Origin: Candidatus Meridianibacter frigidus
Lineage (GTDB): Bacteria > Vulcanimicrobiota > Vulcanimicrobiia > Vulcanimicrobiales > Vulcanimicrobiaceae
Assembly (NCBI GenBank): GCA_003243975.1
Contig: QHBJ01000027.1
Coordinates: forward strand, 1-44,014
DNA length: 44,014 bases
Direction: 5' to 3'
Part shown: positions 34,820 to 40,821 of the stretch, in pieces
How positions within the stretch are numbered: the first letter of the stretch is position 1
Layout of the letters: every line of letters starts with the position of its first letter
Translations under genes and position numbers: made by a program
The notes under the pieces: generated by a model
Databases searched by the model: none
The model's input: the letters and a program-made list of their open reading frames with translations, nothing else
Told to the model about the DNA's origin: nothing

Positions 34820-36430
34820 ATGACACGACAGGCCCAGGTCGGCATCTTTGCAATCCTCGCGCTGCTCCTGCTGTTCGGGGTTTTCTTCGTGATCACCGAC
34901 TTTGCGACGCGCCACACCGGCTATCGGGTCGGCATCCATTTCAACTCAGCAGCCGGCTTGCACTCGGGCGCCCTCGTGTACTTTAGCGGCGTTACCGTCG
35001 GCACGGTCGATTCGATTGCGCTCCTGGGCGATAACACCGTAGACGTCATCTTGGCGATCAACCGAGACGTCGACATCCCGCGCGACTCCAAATTTCTGAT
35101 TCAAGCGCCCCTGACGGGAGATCCGAGTTTGGTGATCGTGCCGCCATTGCCGAAGGCACGGCCGGTCGGCATGCTTGGACCCACGCCAGCGCCCGCGGCC
35201 GTTCCTGTTTTGGAACGGCGCGTGTTGCCGGTGGAAGAGCAACCGCAAGGGACGAACACCGCCACCATTGCCGATCTGCTCGAACAGGGTCAAGGCGAGG
35301 TCAAACGGCTCGATTCGATGCTCGCAGAACTCTCACGCCGCGAACCGGCGCTACTCAACACCATGCAATCCGCTCTGACCAACGCCAACGACTTAACGAT
35401 CACGGCCAATCGGTCGGTCCAGCAGCTTTCGGCGCAGGCGCTTCAGATCGCCGACACCATGCAGACTAGTTTGGGTCAAGCCAGCGCGAACGTTGTGGCG
35501 TTAACCGGCACGTTGAATTCAACCGTTTCCTCCAATTCCGGTAAAGTGGACGCGTTACTGACCACACTCAACCATACGGCCACATCGCTCAATTCGTCGG
35601 TCGATTCGCTCAAGACCTTAGCCACCAACCCCACGCTCAAACAGAATATCGTTGCAACCACGCAAAACATCGCGGATACGACCAAGACCATCGCGTATCT
35701 CACCAATGATCTGCGCCAAATTACGGGCAATCCGCAAACCCAAGGTCAGTTGCGCGACACGGTGGCGCAAATCGATGCCGCGTCGCAGAAAGCAAACTCC
35801 TTGCTCGCCAGTCTCGGCGGCACCAGCAGCGTTCCCGGCATAGACGCAAATGCGACACCGTATCCGGTCATCTATCCGCCGGGCAAGCCGGGCGCTCCCT
35901 ATCCCAGCGCGGCTCCCATCCCGCCATCCAAGGGCACGACGGCGAGCAACGTGCCGGGAAACTTCAAGAACAAACTCGGTAGTCTGGTGAAGAATCTCTA
36001 CGCAGTGCAAATTCGCGTCGGGGAACTGAACCCCGAGAGCGTGCGCACCGGGAACCTCAACCCGCTGCTGTCGGCGGATCGTGGCCCGCAAACGGATTTT
36101 AACGTCATCCTGCTGCCCAAAGGTAACACCAGTTTCATGGCTGGGGTCAACGACATCGGGGCGCGAACGACGTACAACCTAGCGGCAATCGGCAGTTTGG
36201 GAAATGGCATTCGCGTGGGCGGGGGCATTCTCTATTCGCGTTTGGGAGTGCTCGGCTCGTTCGAGCACAACCATCTTGGGCTCGAAGGACGGCTCTACGA
36301 TCTGCGCCGGCCGACGCTGGACGCCTATCTCAATGCCGATGTGGCACCGTCGGCGCGTTTATTCTTTGGTGAACGCGACGTGACGCGCGCCGTGCGTCGT
36401 ACGGTTTTTGGATTGCAGTTGCAGTTCTAA
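34820..36430 (+). CDS. mlaD: MCE/MlaD-family protein with barrel-like C-terminus
   Basis: MCE proteins form the periplasmic ring or tunnel through which lipids pass. The 536-residue protein has a transmembrane anchor (about 7-28), one MCE domain (about 35-115: GIHFNSAAGLHSGALVYFSG, VGTVDSIAL), a long Ser/Thr/Asn-rich helical part (about 135-325) and a Pro-rich linker (about 330-375). From about 385 the pattern changes to short amphipathic strands with turns (FNVILLPKGNTSFMAGVNDI, IRVGGGILYSRLGVLGSF) and ends GLQLQF with a terminal aromatic, like an outer-membrane beta-barrel. It may thus span from inner to outer membrane by itself. The start is ATG at 34820. Confidence 0.88.
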   Translation: MTRQAQVGIFAILALLLLFGVFFVITDFATRHTGYRVGIHFNSAAGLHSGALVYFSGVTVGTVDSIALLGDNTVDVILAINRDVDIPRDSKFLIQAPLTGDPSLVIVPPLPKARPVGMLGPTPAPAAVPVLERRVLPVEEQPQGTNTATIADLLEQGQGEVKRLDSMLAELSRREPALLNTMQSALTNANDLTITANRSVQQLSAQALQIADTMQTSLGQASANVVALTGTLNSTVSSNSGKVDALLTTLNHTATSLNSSVDSLKTLATNPTLKQNIVATTQNIADTTKTIAYLTNDLRQITGNPQTQGQLRDTVAQIDAASQKANSLLASLGGTSSVPGIDANATPYPVIYPPGKPGAPYPSAAPIPPSKGTTASNVPGNFKNKLGSLVKNLYAVQIRVGELNPESVRTGNLNPLLSADRGPQTDFNVILLPKGNTSFMAGVNDIGARTTYNLAAIGSLGNGIRVGGGILYSRLGVLGSFEHNHLGLEGRLYDLRRPTLDAYLNADVAPSARLFFGERDVTRAVRRTVFGLQLQF

Positions 36431-36443
36431 ACGCACCAAACAC

Positions 36444-37391
36444 ATGAGCTCCAGCTCTCCTCCAAGGGTCGGCATAATCGGGGCCGGAGCCATGGGCACG
36501 CTCTTTGGTTACCACCTAGCTAGTCGCTGCACGGTAACGATGATGGACCGCAATACGGCGGTACTCGACGCGATTGCGCACAGCGGCCTTTCCATAAACG
36601 ACGGTGAGTCGCAAGCGGTCGCTACTTCTCGCTCCTCCTCTGCGCTGTATAACTCGTCGGTATTGTTTCTGTTCGTTAAGGCCGTGGATACGCTACAGGC
36701 ACTGCGCCCATTTGCAGGAGAACTCAATCCTTCAACGCCCGTGGTGTCGTTGCAAAACGGGGTTGGCAACGAAGATGCAATCAAGACCGCGCTGGGCGGT
36801 GCCGTCCCCGTTGTGCTGGGCATAACGACCGAGTCCGCCTTTAGTCTCTCGGCCGGGCACGTACGCAACTCGAAGAGCGGGGCAACCATTTTAGGCTCCG
36901 GAGGCGCCTCGCCCGAAACCTCGCGCTGGGTCGCCGAACTGCTTTCCACCAGTGGATTACAAACCTCGGTGGTCTACGACATCCGGCCGCACTTATGGGG
37001 GAAACTTGTCGCCAACGCCGCGATCAATGCCGTGAGCGCACTTCTCGATTGCGAGGTAGGCGCGATTCCCGCCAACTCGGACGCAGCACGGCTCTCCCAA
37101 GCGATTGCACGCGAGGCGGCGCAAGTGGCCGCGGCCCTGCATATTAATCTGCCGTTCTCGGATCCGTGGTCGTACATAACCGAGATCATCGCGATCGGGG
37201 CCGCCGACAAGAGTTCGATGGCTCTTGATTTAGAGTCCGGGCACCGCTCCGAAATCGACCACATAAACGGGGCGGTCCTGGCGGCCGGACGCCGGGTCGG
37301 CATACCGACACCATACAACGAGGCGGTCGCGCGTTTGATCAAGGCCAAGGAGACGCTCCGCCACGCTGCGTTCGCTACATCTGCGGGGTGA
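36444..37391 (+). CDS. panE: Ketopantoate reductase family protein
   Basis: PanE reduces 2-dehydropantoate to pantoate with NADPH for coenzyme A synthesis. ATG 36444 gives MSSSSPPRVGIIGAGAMG, with the Rossmann motif GAGAMG at 13-18; earlier starts would add residues from the overlap with mlaD. FLFVKAVDT and VSLQNGVGNED are usual, HLWGKLVANAAINAVSALL holds the catalytic lysine and LDLESGHRSEIDHINGAVL the substrate site. The length is 315 residues. Other reductases of this family act on other substrates, so the exact reaction is likely but not certain. It overlaps the convergent lipoprotein gene by 17 bp. Confidence 0.88.
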   Translation: MSSSSPPRVGIIGAGAMGTLFGYHLASRCTVTMMDRNTAVLDAIAHSGLSINDGESQAVATSRSSSALYNSSVLFLFVKAVDTLQALRPFAGELNPSTPVVSLQNGVGNEDAIKTALGGAVPVVLGITTESAFSLSAGHVRNSKSGATILGSGGASPETSRWVAELLSTSGLQTSVVYDIRPHLWGKLVANAAINAVSALLDCEVGAIPANSDAARLSQAIAREAAQVAAALHINLPFSDPWSYITEIIAIGAADKSSMALDLESGHRSEIDHINGAVLAAGRRVGIPTPYNEAVARLIKAKETLRHAAFATSAG

Positions 37392-38139
37392 GCTTGAGCA
37401 ACCGGATGTCTCCGTCGAGCACGTGAACGACGATGGACCGGGCGCCACCACCGTTGATCGGCGCAGCGATGGTCTCCGAGTTCCCATTGGATGTGCCGCG
37501 TAGTTCGAAGTCCGTAAAGATGGTTCCGCGGCCGGTATGTAAGCGCACGTGTGCGCGCGCTTGCGCCGGCACGTACACCTCGACATTTCCGCGCACGGCC
37601 GAGAATGCGAGCGTGCCCGGCCATTGTGCATCGCCGAAAGTGGCTGAAATATTCCCGCTGCCGGTCGAGGCTTGCGCGTAGCCGGGAACTTGAATCTTGA
37701 TGTCCCCTTCCTGATTGACGGCCTCAATCGAACCGTCGATATCTGAGACATGAAGCGTCCCGTGGCTTGTTTCGATGATTGCGCGCACGCCGTGCGGCAC
37801 GCGAACGATGTAGTCTGCGCGTACGTCGGCCGAAGGCGGGCAGGCTGCGGTCTGCGGCGCTGCGCGGCGCTCTGGGCAGACGGTAAGAACCTTTTTCTTG
37901 GCGTTCCATCGAATGCGCGTTTGGACGTCCGGTTGCGTCGTCGTTTCGGTCACCGTGTATTGGTCCCGCGCTTGGCCGAAGGCCGGCGGATATGCTTCAA
38001 CGTTCCCGTTGCTGTTCATCACGACCATGGTCCCGCCGGTGAGCTTCCCGGTTTGAATGCTGGCCGGCTTATCGCCGCAGGCGGCCGTGAGAAGAAGGAG
38101 GAGCGCGCCCGAAAGTCCTTTGGAAGCTTGGCGGAACAC
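37375..38139 (-). CDS. DUF4097-like beta-helix lipoprotein
   Basis: The 254-residue protein has a lipoprotein signal (LLLLLTAAC, lipidated Cys21), so it should be membrane-anchored outside the cytoplasm. From about 110 the sequence is a series of short beta rungs with Gly/Asn turns (GTLHVSDIDGSIEAVNQEGD, GSGNISATFGD, FSAVRGNVEVYVP), the DUF4097/putative-adhesin pattern. Three cysteines beyond the lipid site occur near 88-99. The function is unknown. GTG 38139 shares a base with the xerC stop (TAGTG), so it is coupled to the recombinase gene, an unusual pairing. Confidence 0.75.
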   Translation of the reverse strand: MFRQASKGLSGALLLLLTAACGDKPASIQTGKLTGGTMVVMNSNGNVEAYPPAFGQARDQYTVTETTTQPDVQTRIRWNAKKKVLTVCPERRAAPQTAACPPSADVRADYIVRVPHGVRAIIETSHGTLHVSDIDGSIEAVNQEGDIKIQVPGYAQASTGSGNISATFGDAQWPGTLAFSAVRGNVEVYVPAQARAHVRLHTGRGTIFTDFELRGTSNGNSETIAAPINGGGARSIVVHVLDGDIRLLKLTPQM

Positions 38140-39197
38140 TACGGACGTTTGCCTGACCGCGCGCGCGATACCGCATCGTCGGCCCGGTCACGGGGATGGT
38201 GCTGGTCGTAGCTGCGGCGTACGTGATCCATTGTCATTTTTGCATAGATTTGCGTGGTCTGAACGCTTTCGTGCCCCAGAAACTCTTTGATGGTCATCAG
38301 ATCGACACCGCTCTTATGAAGATGGGTAGCAACCGAGTGGCGCATCGTGTGCGGCGTGATCTTGCCTTCCAGACCGCTGATGCGCACGTAAGCTGAAAAA
38401 ACGCGGCCGATCTGCTGGTAGCTTAGCCGCCGGCCCTGTTTGCTTACGAAAAGCGCCCCATCTTTACAGCGGGGTCGAACTTTTAGGTAGGATTGCAGCG
38501 CGTCGGCTGTTGCACGGTTAAAGAACGTAAGCCGCTCCTTGTTGCCCTTGCCGATAACCCGAATGGTTTGGCTTTCAAAGTTCACGTCAGTCGCGTTGAT
38601 CGCAACGAGCTCCGCACGCCGCATTCCGCTGGCGTATAGCAGCTCCAGAATCGCAATGTCGCGGCGCCAGCGCAACTCAGGTTCGCCGGCGGGTGGTCGC
38701 GTACCGATAAGTTTCAGAACGTCCGCGACCTCCAGCGCCTTAGGTAGTCGCATCGGAAGTTTAATGTTTGGAATATCAAGCGCCGGGTTGTCGGCACGCC
38801 GGCCCTCGCGCTTGAGGAAGGCAAAAAAGCGCCGCAGAACCGCCAGCTTGCGGCGAATGCCTGCCGCGCTGTACTGCATGCGCCCCAGCTGCATGACGAA
38901 CTGCCGCACGGATGAGGCGGTTGCCTCGACAAGCACGGTCCCGAAGGGGCCCCGATAGGGTTCGCCATCGGCACTCGTGTGAGGGCGTCCTTGCAGATAA
39001 GCGCCGAATACCTCGACATCGCGCGCGTACTCCGTTGCCGTGCGGGGCGCACGCTTCAATTCCAGCTCCAGGTACTGAAAGAAATCTACGACGAGCGGAT
39101 CCTGCGGGCGCGAATCGTGGCAGCGCGCATCCGGCTTGCCGGTGTAGCGGTTGATTTCGCGGTCAGGCGACGCCTCGGGCCGGGCGCGTTTCGGCAA
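38139..39197 (-). CDS. xerC: XerC/XerD-type tyrosine recombinase
   Basis: Xer recombinases resolve chromosome dimers at dif. The 352-residue protein has a SAM-like DNA-binding domain (about 35-135: FFQYLELELKRAPRTATEYA) and the full catalytic set: Arg193 (GMRRAEL), Lys217 (GKGNKER), His283 and Arg286 (HTMRH), His309 (LGHESV) and Tyr318 (TTQIYAKM). It is about 50 residues longer than usual XerC/D because of a polar N-terminal tail and a basic C-terminal tail. TTG 39197 is preceded by GGAAGAGGGAG; an internal start near residue 35 cannot be excluded. An 11-bp inverted repeat lies 17-48 bases upstream. Whether it is the housekeeping Xer protein or an element integrase cannot be settled here. Confidence 0.88.
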   Translation of the reverse strand: MPKRARPEASPDREINRYTGKPDARCHDSRPQDPLVVDFFQYLELELKRAPRTATEYARDVEVFGAYLQGRPHTSADGEPYRGPFGTVLVEATASSVRQFVMQLGRMQYSAAGIRRKLAVLRRFFAFLKREGRRADNPALDIPNIKLPMRLPKALEVADVLKLIGTRPPAGEPELRWRRDIAILELLYASGMRRAELVAINATDVNFESQTIRVIGKGNKERLTFFNRATADALQSYLKVRPRCKDGALFVSKQGRRLSYQQIGRVFSAYVRISGLEGKITPHTMRHSVATHLHKSGVDLMTIKEFLGHESVQTTQIYAKMTMDHVRRSYDQHHPRDRADDAVSRARSGKRP

Positions 39198-39213
39198 ATT
39201 CTCCCTCTTCCTG

Positions 39214-39245
39214 TAATTAGCGCAAATATTGGTTTGTACTAATTA
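39214..39245. promoter_or_regulatory. Inverted repeat upstream of xerC
   Basis: TAATTAGCGCA (39214-39224) and TGTACTAATTA (39235-39245) are inverted repeats agreeing at 9 of 11 positions, separated by ten bases (AATATTGGTT). TAATTAGCG also occurs as a direct repeat at 39214 and 39240. The stretch is strikingly AT-rich against its surroundings and lies just before the xerC start. An operator for xerC or a recombinase-binding site is plausible; the ten-base spacer is longer than the six to eight of a standard dif. Confidence 0.5.
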
Positions 39246-39283
39246 GCGAGAAGCTCTAATGTTTCCTCTGGGTGCGCGCCTGT

Positions 39284-39712
39284 TCAGCTTACGTACGAAA
39301 CATTCACCGGGAAGCCGGCGGCCTCGGCCTGCTGCAGGACGCCGAAGACTTGGTCGAGTTCTTCCTCGATCGTGACGATTTCGCCGGCGGTGACGCCTAC
39401 GGGCGCGGCATTCTCCCAAAGAATGCGGCGGGCGGTTTGGAGTGCCGAGCGCAGGCGCTGCGGGGTGGCCTGCATGACGGGCCAATCCTCCATCGATATC
39501 GGCGGGACGATCCGCCACCCGTTGCCGGAGGTAATGCCGTCGTCGAAAAATGCGTGCGGGATGCTGGCCAGCATCTCGACCGACTCGCGCTCGGAGGCAC
39601 GCAGCGTCAGCCCCATCTCGGCCAGGCGTACGATGTAGCGAAAAAACGAGGTGTTGCCCACCGTGTAGGAGCCCGCGGGCGATTCCACGCTCACGTGGAC
39701 CTTATCGTTCAT
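39284..39712 (-). CDS. Uncharacterised 142-residue protein
   Basis: The soluble protein shows a beta-rich beginning (VHVSVESPAGSYTVGNTSFF), a middle with HAFFDDGITSGNGWRIVPPI and a helical C-terminal half (LRSALQTARRILWENA, IEEELDQVFGVLQQAEAAG). I recognise no family. ATG 39712 is preceded by AGAAGG, which overlaps the end of the dehydrogenase gene eight bases away, so the two are probably cotranscribed. A link to the dehydrogenase is conjecture. Confidence 0.6.
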   Translation of the reverse strand: MNDKVHVSVESPAGSYTVGNTSFFRYIVRLAEMGLTLRASERESVEMLASIPHAFFDDGITSGNGWRIVPPISMEDWPVMQATPQRLRSALQTARRILWENAAPVGVTAGEIVTIEEELDQVFGVLQQAEAAGFPVNVSYVS

Positions 39713-39720
39713 GGGCCCTT

Positions 39721-40821
39721 CTACTTCTGCAAAGCGAACGGAATTTCAAGTTCGCCCGCCAGTTTTTGCAGCCCGGCCCATACTTTGTGATGGACCGGCA
39801 CGCCGTTTTCTCGATGGTAGAACGTTTTTTCGTGCTCGATTTCGCCCGCGACGTAAATGCGCGTCTGCCCGGGTACTTTCGAGCTTTGCTTAAACGCGCG
39901 CAGCTCGCGATCCATATCTGCCTTGAACTCCGCAACGTCGCGAAATCCATCCACGCGGAACGCGCCGAACCAATGCGAGATGGCACCAGCCTCCGGTCCG
40001 CTGCTTGGGAGGGGCAGGATATTTCCAAACGCGCCACCGCTTAAAACGCCGCACAGGATATCCACCAGCATTCCAAGGCCGTAGCCCTTGTGACCACCAT
40101 GCTCCACTCCAAAACCGCCGAGCGGCAGGAGCGCGCCCTTTAGTGCTTCCGCCGGTTCGGTCGTCGGGTGCCCTTGCGCATCGATGGCCCAGCCGTCTTC
40201 GAGCGGCTTCTCCTTGCGCTGGTACACTTCAAGCTTTCCACGAGGCACCGTCGTCGTCGCAAAGTCCAGAACGAACGCAGGCTCCTTAGCGGTGGGGACG
40301 GCGAATGCAAGCGGATTTGTTCCGAGCATGATGTCCCGGCCGTACGTCGGCGCGCCGTAGCGAACAGAATTCGTTGAAGCCAGGCCGATCATATCGTGGT
40401 CGAGTGCGAGCATCGCGTAGTATCCGGCGATTCCAAAATGGTTCGAATTGCGCACGGCACCGAATGCGGCGCCCTGCGCGCGCGCCTTTTCGATGACCTT
40501 CTGCATCGCCATCTTGGCAACCGGGTGGCCCAGGCCATTATCGGCGTCGTACACGACGGACGTGCCGGTCTCGCGAACGATCCGGTAGGCGGGATTGGCG
40601 TTTAGCTTGCCCGCCCGAATCCGGCTCACGTAGTACGATTCCAAGCGCGCAACGCCATGCGATTCGATGCCCCGCAAATCCGATGCCACCAAGACTTCGG
40701 CGACGACACGTGAATCGTCCGGCGCAACGCCCACTGTTTTCAATACCGTTGCAACGAAGGTCTCAAGCTTCGGCTGCGTGCTAAGAACGTACTCGCTGGT
40801 TGCCAGTTCGGCCAAAAGCAT
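39721..40821 (-). CDS. LDH2-family malate/lactate/ureidoglycolate dehydrogenase
   Basis: LDH2-family enzymes are NAD(P)-dependent 2-hydroxyacid dehydrogenases with their own fold. The 366-residue protein shows the family motifs DLRGIESHGVARLESY (active-site histidine), RNSNHFGIAGYYA, LGTNPLAFAVP, VLDFATT and GGHKGYGLGMLVDILCGVLSG. The substrate cannot be told: malate, lactate, ureidoglycolate and sulfolactate enzymes share these. ATG 40821 stands only two bases after AGGAGG; the TTG at 40815, eight bases after it, may be the true start. The gene is divergent from a GlcF-like gene, which fits hydroxyacid metabolism. Confidence 0.88.
   Translation of the reverse strand: MLLAELATSEYVLSTQPKLETFVATVLKTVGVAPDDSRVVAEVLVASDLRGIESHGVARLESYYVSRIRAGKLNANPAYRIVRETGTSVVYDADNGLGHPVAKMAMQKVIEKARAQGAAFGAVRNSNHFGIAGYYAMLALDHDMIGLASTNSVRYGAPTYGRDIMLGTNPLAFAVPTAKEPAFVLDFATTTVPRGKLEVYQRKEKPLEDGWAIDAQGHPTTEPAEALKGALLPLGGFGVEHGGHKGYGLGMLVDILCGVLSGGAFGNILPLPSSGPEAGAISHWFGAFRVDGFRDVAEFKADMDRELRAFKQSSKVPGQTRIYVAGEIEHEKTFYHRENGVPVHHKVWAGLQKLAGELEIPFALQK

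Follow-up and report, generated by a model that had tools for sequence, protein, structure and literature searches.

A lone XerC-like recombinase gene and its probable dif site form a linked pair in the Vulcanimicrobiota

The dif sites of bacterial chromosomes are AT-rich and consist of two inverted arms, each about 11 bases long, that flank a centre of 6–8 bases, and each chromosome carries a single one at the terminus, opposite oriC. Xer systems with a single recombinase have already been described in streptococci and lactococci, in some epsilonproteobacteria, in archaea and in the Legionellales; the system considered here appears to span a whole class of another phylum. The sections of two papers drawn on here (PMC5357621, PMC2731167) describe the XerS/difSL system of streptococci and lactococci as one 356-aa recombinase and a linked site, forming a module at the terminus. 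In the same sections, XerH/difH of Campylobacter and Helicobacter is one recombinase of 354–362 aa whose site is linked to the gene in most species, with conserved inverted repeats around a central hexanucleotide. Lactobacillus helveticus carries xerC, xerD and xerS together, and the part of the report cited here (PMC3025954) suggests that it is an intermediate with a horizontally acquired second Xer system. In the open-licence literature, no report of a single-recombinase Xer-dif module was found for the Eremiobacterota or Vulcanimicrobiota.

A comparable arrangement can be recognised in a contig of Candidatus Meridianibacter frigidus, where an AT-rich inverted repeat precedes a gene for a Xer-type recombinase. 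In light of the sequence comparisons given below, the repeat is very probably the chromosomal dif and the adjacent gene the only Xer of its genome, the two being a linked module that appears to have been exchanged between lineages. The features concerned are listed here by their positions in the window, that is, the whole stretch of 44,014 nucleotides that was analysed, which makes up one complete contig.

39214..39245, minus strand: dif-like site, TAATTAGTACAAA-CCAATA-TTTGCGCTAATTA read in the xer direction (from repeat geometry, relatives and covariance model)
39233..39245, minus strand: left 13-base arm, TAATTAGTACAAA (from covariation of the arms)
39227..39232, minus strand: centre of 6 bases, CCAATA, where strands are presumed to be exchanged (from the covariation register)
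39214..39226, minus strand: right 13-base arm, TTTGCGCTAATTA (from covariation of the arms)
38139..39197, minus strand: xer, gene for the one Xer-type tyrosine recombinase, with a TTG start and 352 aa long (from Pfam, NCBIfam and XerD alignment)
37375..38139, minus strand: DUF4097 gene 3′ of xer, a neighbour in several relatives also, outside the module

The repeat lies 17–48 bases 5′ of the TTG start of the 352-aa open reading frame (38139–39197), just where an earlier note on this DNA had placed it. That note had described 11-base arms, matched at 9 of 11 positions, around a 10-base spacer; this is correct, but the arms extend inward by two further matched bases. The 11/10/11 geometry was accordingly dropped for 13/6/13, since the two inner bases pair too and covariation among relatives backs the latter register. 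Thus defined, the site (39214–39245, minus strand) has 13-base arms matched at 11 of 13 positions and a 6-base spacer, which is the geometry of a dif site. It is also AT-rich in the manner of dif, with 8 G/C among its 32 bases (25%) against about 60% GC in the window. The centre, CCAATA, is presumed by analogy with the Xer/dif family to be the region of strand exchange, and in most relatives the first base of the centre is C and the last A. Across the whole window, 13 repeats fit the 11/10/9 definition, compared with 6–14 in ten Markov shuffles, and 2 fit the 13/6/11 definition, compared with 0–3. Within the 100 bases upstream of xer, a qualifying repeat (11-base arms, at least 9 matched, any spacer of 4–12) arose in 3.8% of 500 local shuffles. 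Judged on the window alone the repeat is only suggestive, and because these window counts lie so near to those of the shuffles, the case rests on conservation in relatives.

The protein encoded next to the repeat has a Phage_integrase domain (PF00589, 2.4e-39) and an N-terminal SAM-like domain (PF02899, 1.3e-14) in Pfam. Against the curated NCBIfam models it scores 262.7 bits for XerC (TIGR02224, cut-off 335.15), 234.2 for XerD (TIGR02225, cut-off 329.6), 115.4 for XerS (NF003462, cut-off 267) and 209.5 for archaeal XerA (NF040815, cut-off 220). It is thus a member of the Xer family and XerC-like, yet it lies below the cut-offs of all four, including both equivalogs; the name XerC, given to it before, holds only in this looser sense. 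It had also been called longer than usual at both ends, and indeed TIGR02224 matches residues 52–351 of the 366-residue reading (P0001). In the numbering of that reading (subtract 14 for the TTG start), the alignment with XerD places R207, K231, H297, R300, H323 and Y332 in the catalytic set R-K-H-R-H-Y of Xer tyrosine recombinases, and all six are present. Among proteins of known structure, XerD (1a0p, E 4e-39) is matched more strongly than XerH (5jjv, E 7e-11). A scan of named genomes returned two Candidatus Eremiobacterota MAGs at 67–68%, both labelled Vulcanimicrobiota by the tree tool, and one distant Saccharibacteria match. On the far side of xer, window positions 36408–38139 hold the DUF4097 gene and a convergent ApbA gene; the same surroundings recur in several relatives, whose Xer types differ.

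Most members of the phylum seem to have one such enzyme. With the cut-off set at E 1e-30, where a second Xer would escape notice if it had diverged strongly, 132 of 149 phylum genomes (the window's own included) match the window's Xer, and 125 of these 132 have exactly one. The source genome (43 contigs, 96% complete) is among them: its five other Phage_integrase matches reach 23–87 bits against 137 for xer and are short or broken, and the one of these that was scored against NCBIfam fell far below XerC. The near-symmetric arms of the site agree with a single Xer acting on both. Of 60 genomes, 57 encode an FtsK gamma domain, a presence that allows FtsK control of Xer.

Conservation of the site was found among the relatives. 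The regions 5′ of 52 xer hits, that of the window among them, were oriented to xer, and a de novo motif search recovered the window repeat in an estimated 78% of them, with a log-likelihood of 368 compared with 103–135 in three Markov controls. Leaving out L057, the second xer of G041, a site scoring at least 14 was present at 44 of 51 loci, and 43 of the 44 were distinct; these kept sites take in weak ones of distant families (L053–L056), three of them on the opposite strand. The seven loci scoring below 14 were L016, L017, L019, L025, L028, L040 and L043: sites were recovered farther upstream at the first three and on other contigs for L025 and L040, L043 (G021) is the distant case described below, and L028 (G015) has no supported site. 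Across the 43 distinct sites, the two arms form 369 Watson-Crick cells, compared with a mean of 261 and a maximum of 291 in 2000 shuffles, none of which reached the observed value, a statistic that is inflated by relatedness of the sequences. When the right arm was slid inward by 1–3 bases (inward slides only), the paired cells fell to 152–195. Since the search motif covered only four right-arm bases, it cannot account for the pairing seen at the nine outer pairs.

The site sequence itself varies widely among relatives, with examples such as CCCCAAA-CAATCA-TTTGGGG and ATCATGAAA-CTACGA-TTCTAGGAT, and the left and right arms change together. The comparison of repeats upstream of xer proposed in the earlier note has thus found a conserved site with covarying arms. 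At one locus (L018, G027:C106), the right half of the site recurs inverted about 50 bases downstream. In G013 and G016, hairpins that take in the left arm adjoin the sites.

Copy number and linkage were followed with a covariance model, R1, built from 36 of the 44 sites and run on 60 genomes, the source genome included. In the source genome (1.95 Mb) the site is the sole match at E 1, and it is also unique at up to three mismatches of its inner 26 bases; the genome-wide search suggested earlier thus returned one copy. Among class-level relatives, 44 of 54 match R1 at E 1 or better. By hand comparison, 41 of the 44 matches share a contig with xer (the gene is split in G043, and it is the N-terminal piece that shares the contig), and those of G001, G015 and G018 lie on contigs without xer, the G015 match (E 0.456, other contig) being counted as unsupported. 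Except in G021, every one of the 41 same-contig sites shares the strand of xer and precedes the gene by no more than 5.2 kb. Measured to the start of the search hit and not to the start codon, 32 sites lie within about 150 bases of xer and 5 more within 1 kb, and the longer distances are 3.7 kb (G032), 5.0 kb (G012), 5.1 kb (G036) and 42.6 kb (G021). In G036 (contig C8, L164:4039–9146), the dif-like site is separated from xer by two GGDEF-EAL genes. In G021 (L162:4001–4032; C69:76216–76247), the dif-like sequence, separated from xer by 42.6 kb and lying on the opposite strand, reads ATATCACCAAA-CTCCTA-TTTGGTGATAT.

A single R1 match was found in 40 of the 44 matching class-level relatives, and second matches in G012, G035, G041 and G047. 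The two copies at contig ends in G035 and G012 had been considered as an element inserted at dif, an idea given up when their flanks proved homologous, as in variants of one locus. The second match in G041 (C12:36640, E 0.0039) lies inside a 448-aa open reading frame with both DnaB domains and is taken as chance; that in G047 has E 0.053.

Similar results came from 40 further genomes, 30 of which match R1. Two of the 40 (G080 and G082, judged to be the genomes of L075 and L074) had been used in the model, and among the 38 outside it 28 match. In every one of the 30 matching genomes, the best site shares the strand of xer and precedes the gene by no more than 2.4 kb. For both sets together, a hand count places the best match on a contig with xer in 71 of the 74 genomes with an R1 match. 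No R1 match at E 1 was found in 10 of the 54 class-level relatives and 10 of the 40 further genomes. Six of the ten class-level relatives (G028, G031, G033, G040, G052 and G053) are also without a strong xer match, and in G007 and G046 the site is given by a weight matrix. In G007 it is this weaker matrix, together with likeness to congeners, that reveals the site 1.7 kb upstream of xer. Five of the ten non-matching further genomes (G120, G121, G123, G126 and G129) belong to one genus, that of G007; the site of this genus (AGTAACGGAAATACCGATTATCGT with its variants) can be made out in the sequence but has diverged too far for R1. In the distant families (G055–G059), R1 matches are weak or several, and G056 has a nearby match in the opposite orientation.

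Two possibilities had been raised for the repeat from the outset, a recombination site kept with its enzyme and an operator for autoregulation. The first is strongly supported by conservation, linkage, copy number and arm covariation. According to the second, Xer would repress its own gene by way of the repeat, which would serve as operator and play no part in recombination. The 17–48 bases that separate the repeat from the start codon in the window would suit such a function, as would the close spacing in class-level relatives, 32 of whose 44 sites are no more than about 150 bases away from the xer hit. The distance is variable among relatives, and thus the site is not simply an operator: it lies 0.4–5.1 kb from the xer hit in G005, G007, G010, G012, G019, G024, G032, G034, G036 (with the two GGDEF-EAL genes between), G087, G101, G104, G105 and G108, and in G021 it is 42.6 kb off and on the opposite strand. 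The comparison thus speaks against autoregulation as the chief role, and a 6-base centre with 13-base arms, together with a place opposite dnaA in two genomes, is what would be expected of dif instead. A sigma-70 scan of window positions 37900–39900 found no promoter-like site, a result that says little about an operator. Overall, a purely regulatory repeat is very improbable, and the repeat may have an additional regulatory effect on xer.

The position opposite dnaA fits the reading of the repeat as dif. Because the source genome is too fragmented (43 contigs), the terminal position was assessed in relatives only. Of the 19 genomes searched, 18 yielded dnaA, and in two (G007 and G075) dnaA and xer share a contig. 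In G007 (complete, one contig of 3,508,363 bp), dnaA is at 443 and xer at 1,693,795 with the site 1.7 kb before it, or 48% of the way around. For G075 (contig C1, 2,792,500 bp in a genome of about 2.8 Mb), the corresponding positions are 1,447,372 for dnaA and 43,797 for the site, or 50%, using the full-strength DnaA match and not a weaker DnaA-domain match (1.2e-8) also present. These positions are good evidence that the site lies opposite dnaA in the two relatives. Skew and coding strand, compared on either side of the site in twenty 20-kb samples per genome (one-sided p), give only mild support for a terminus. The halves of G075 differ in GC skew (p 0.026) and coding strand (p 0.040), the coding contrast peaking at 0.50 but the skew contrast being higher again at 0.75. 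The halves of G007 differ in coding strand (p 0.011), with a contrast that is not largest at the site, but not significantly in GC skew (p 0.272). GC skew was set aside as a terminus test, being almost flat both in G007 and in the window, where no clear switch was seen.

Several observations suggest that xer and its site have moved between lineages together. Xers of the window type are found in G000, G008, G029, G080 and G082 of family f1 and in G041 and G049 of family f3, the families being the tree tool's labels and the DnaA AAA-domain identities being too even to settle how f1 and f3 are related. These Xers are 70–77% identical among genomes (95% between G080 and G082), compared with 38–57% between the window's Xer and the other f1 Xers. 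The tree joins the seven at 100/99, and several of its other forks are open. One case is that of G080 and G082 and their congeners G083 and G075, which have ApbA, DUF4097 and adjoining genes in common, with xer reversed in the latter two. Their ApbA neighbours are 84–89% identical and their Xers only 45–46%, and the Xers of G080 and G082 are 70–73% identical to window-type Xers, two of family f3 among them. The type of site tracks the Xer: G080 and G082 have AAATAGCACAAA-centre-TTTGCGC, and G083 and G075 have arms GAATGCGATAAAA or GAATGCGATGAAA with TTATGTCGCAT. The window-type Xer and site are scattered over two families, while the relationships of the flanking gene are those of the genus, which suggests that Xer and site were swapped as a module; on present comparisons the simplest reading would be that enzyme and site replaced the residents together.

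In G041, a window-type xer and its site stand before an f3-type xer closest to that of G042 (100/96). The f3-type xer has a branch of 0.49, compared with 0.15 for its sister, and its motifs around the catalytic residues are altered, the catalytic residues themselves being kept. No site of its own was recognised by the weight matrix or R1. At this locus (L057:4667–7332, contig C14), the window-type xer with its site, a 215-aa open reading frame and the f3 xer run head to tail with overlaps of 1–4 bases, and the 215-aa frame has no Pfam match. It is somewhat more probable than otherwise that the xer-dif pair, about 1.1 kb in length, is an exchangeable cassette that passes between families and displaces the resident pair, site as well as enzyme, near the terminus, with G041 looking as if caught in mid-replacement.

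A rival reading takes the site as the attachment site of a mobile element and the Xer as its integrase, the true dif lying elsewhere. The scatter of window-type Xers across genera and two families would fit, and so would the presence in G041 of a window-type Xer beside a second, resident-type one. Such an element would leave the source genome without a Xer, since its other five Phage_integrase matches are weaker, short or broken. The site is moreover mostly single (the copies in G035 and G012 being one locus, and the second G041 match lying in a dnaB gene), and a place opposite dnaA would be unexpected for an attachment site. This explanation, too, has very little chance of being right. The earlier note had held that a standard dif elsewhere with unrelated arms, the repeat being unconserved, would count against its reading; in the source genome nothing else matched the site model, a search that covers sites resembling this one, and the repeat is conserved among relatives. 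Finally, the repeat might be an AT-rich inverted repeat that arose by chance, or a common transcription terminator or promoter element. The window counts near those of shuffles agree with this, but it is next to inconceivable now that the site has proved conserved, with arms that covary in one register, and linked to xer in most of the genomes examined.

If the repeat is dif and its neighbour the sole Xer, its action can be outlined from the Xer family. Two Xer monomers would bind the two arms, and in a chromosome dimer four would join its two dif copies. Strands would then be exchanged across the 6-base centre, with cleavage at its edges, to give two monomer chromosomes, and FtsK at the septum would probably control the exchange. 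Binding, cleavage, strand exchange, dimer resolution and control by FtsK are all attributed to this Xer by family likeness.

Such a function would be ordinary, and what is new is its occurrence in this phylum, with an XerC-like enzyme and good signs of cassette exchange. The combination of an XerC-like enzyme with a classical 6-base centre implies that the plan of one Xer with a linked site is not tied to XerS or XerH proteins. The many natural enzyme-site pairs with differing arms should be useful for work on Xer DNA specificity, and the apparent swaps would be cases in which a whole dimer-resolution system has been exchanged. The site may also serve to mark the terminus in fragmented Eremiobacterota genomes with little GC skew.

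Among known systems, XerCD/dif is similar in protein family, 6-base centre, near-terminus position and the FtsK gamma domain. It differs in that the genomes studied here mostly have one Xer, which lies below both equivalog cut-offs, and in that the site adjoins the gene instead of being scattered. The archaeal XerA/dif and the XerL/dif of Legionellales are, in the parts of the sources used (PMC5357621, PMC9765430), also single-recombinase systems. The window's Xer stays below the XerA cut-off (209.5 against 220), and the dif and xerL of L. pneumophila are placed more than 400 kb apart in the part of PMC9765430 used. L. helveticus resembles G041 in having a second Xer system beside the resident one, as far as the cited part of PMC3025954 describes it; no site was found there for its XerS, whereas the window-type Xer of G041 sits with its site. 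XerS/difSL, as outlined in the sections cited above, shares with the present system a single recombinase genetically linked to its site, but the difSL centre is 11 bases long (PMC5357621), compared with 6 here, and the window's Xer scores only about 115 bits where the XerS model requires 267, being much closer to XerC and XerD. XerH/difH shares the single recombinase, the linked site and, in the same sections, the 6-base centre; the relation of the window's Xer to XerH is nonetheless weak (5jjv, E 7e-11) compared with that to XerD (1a0p, E 4e-39). The best reading, then, is of a system that follows the plan of XerS/difSL and XerH/difH but uses an XerC-like enzyme.
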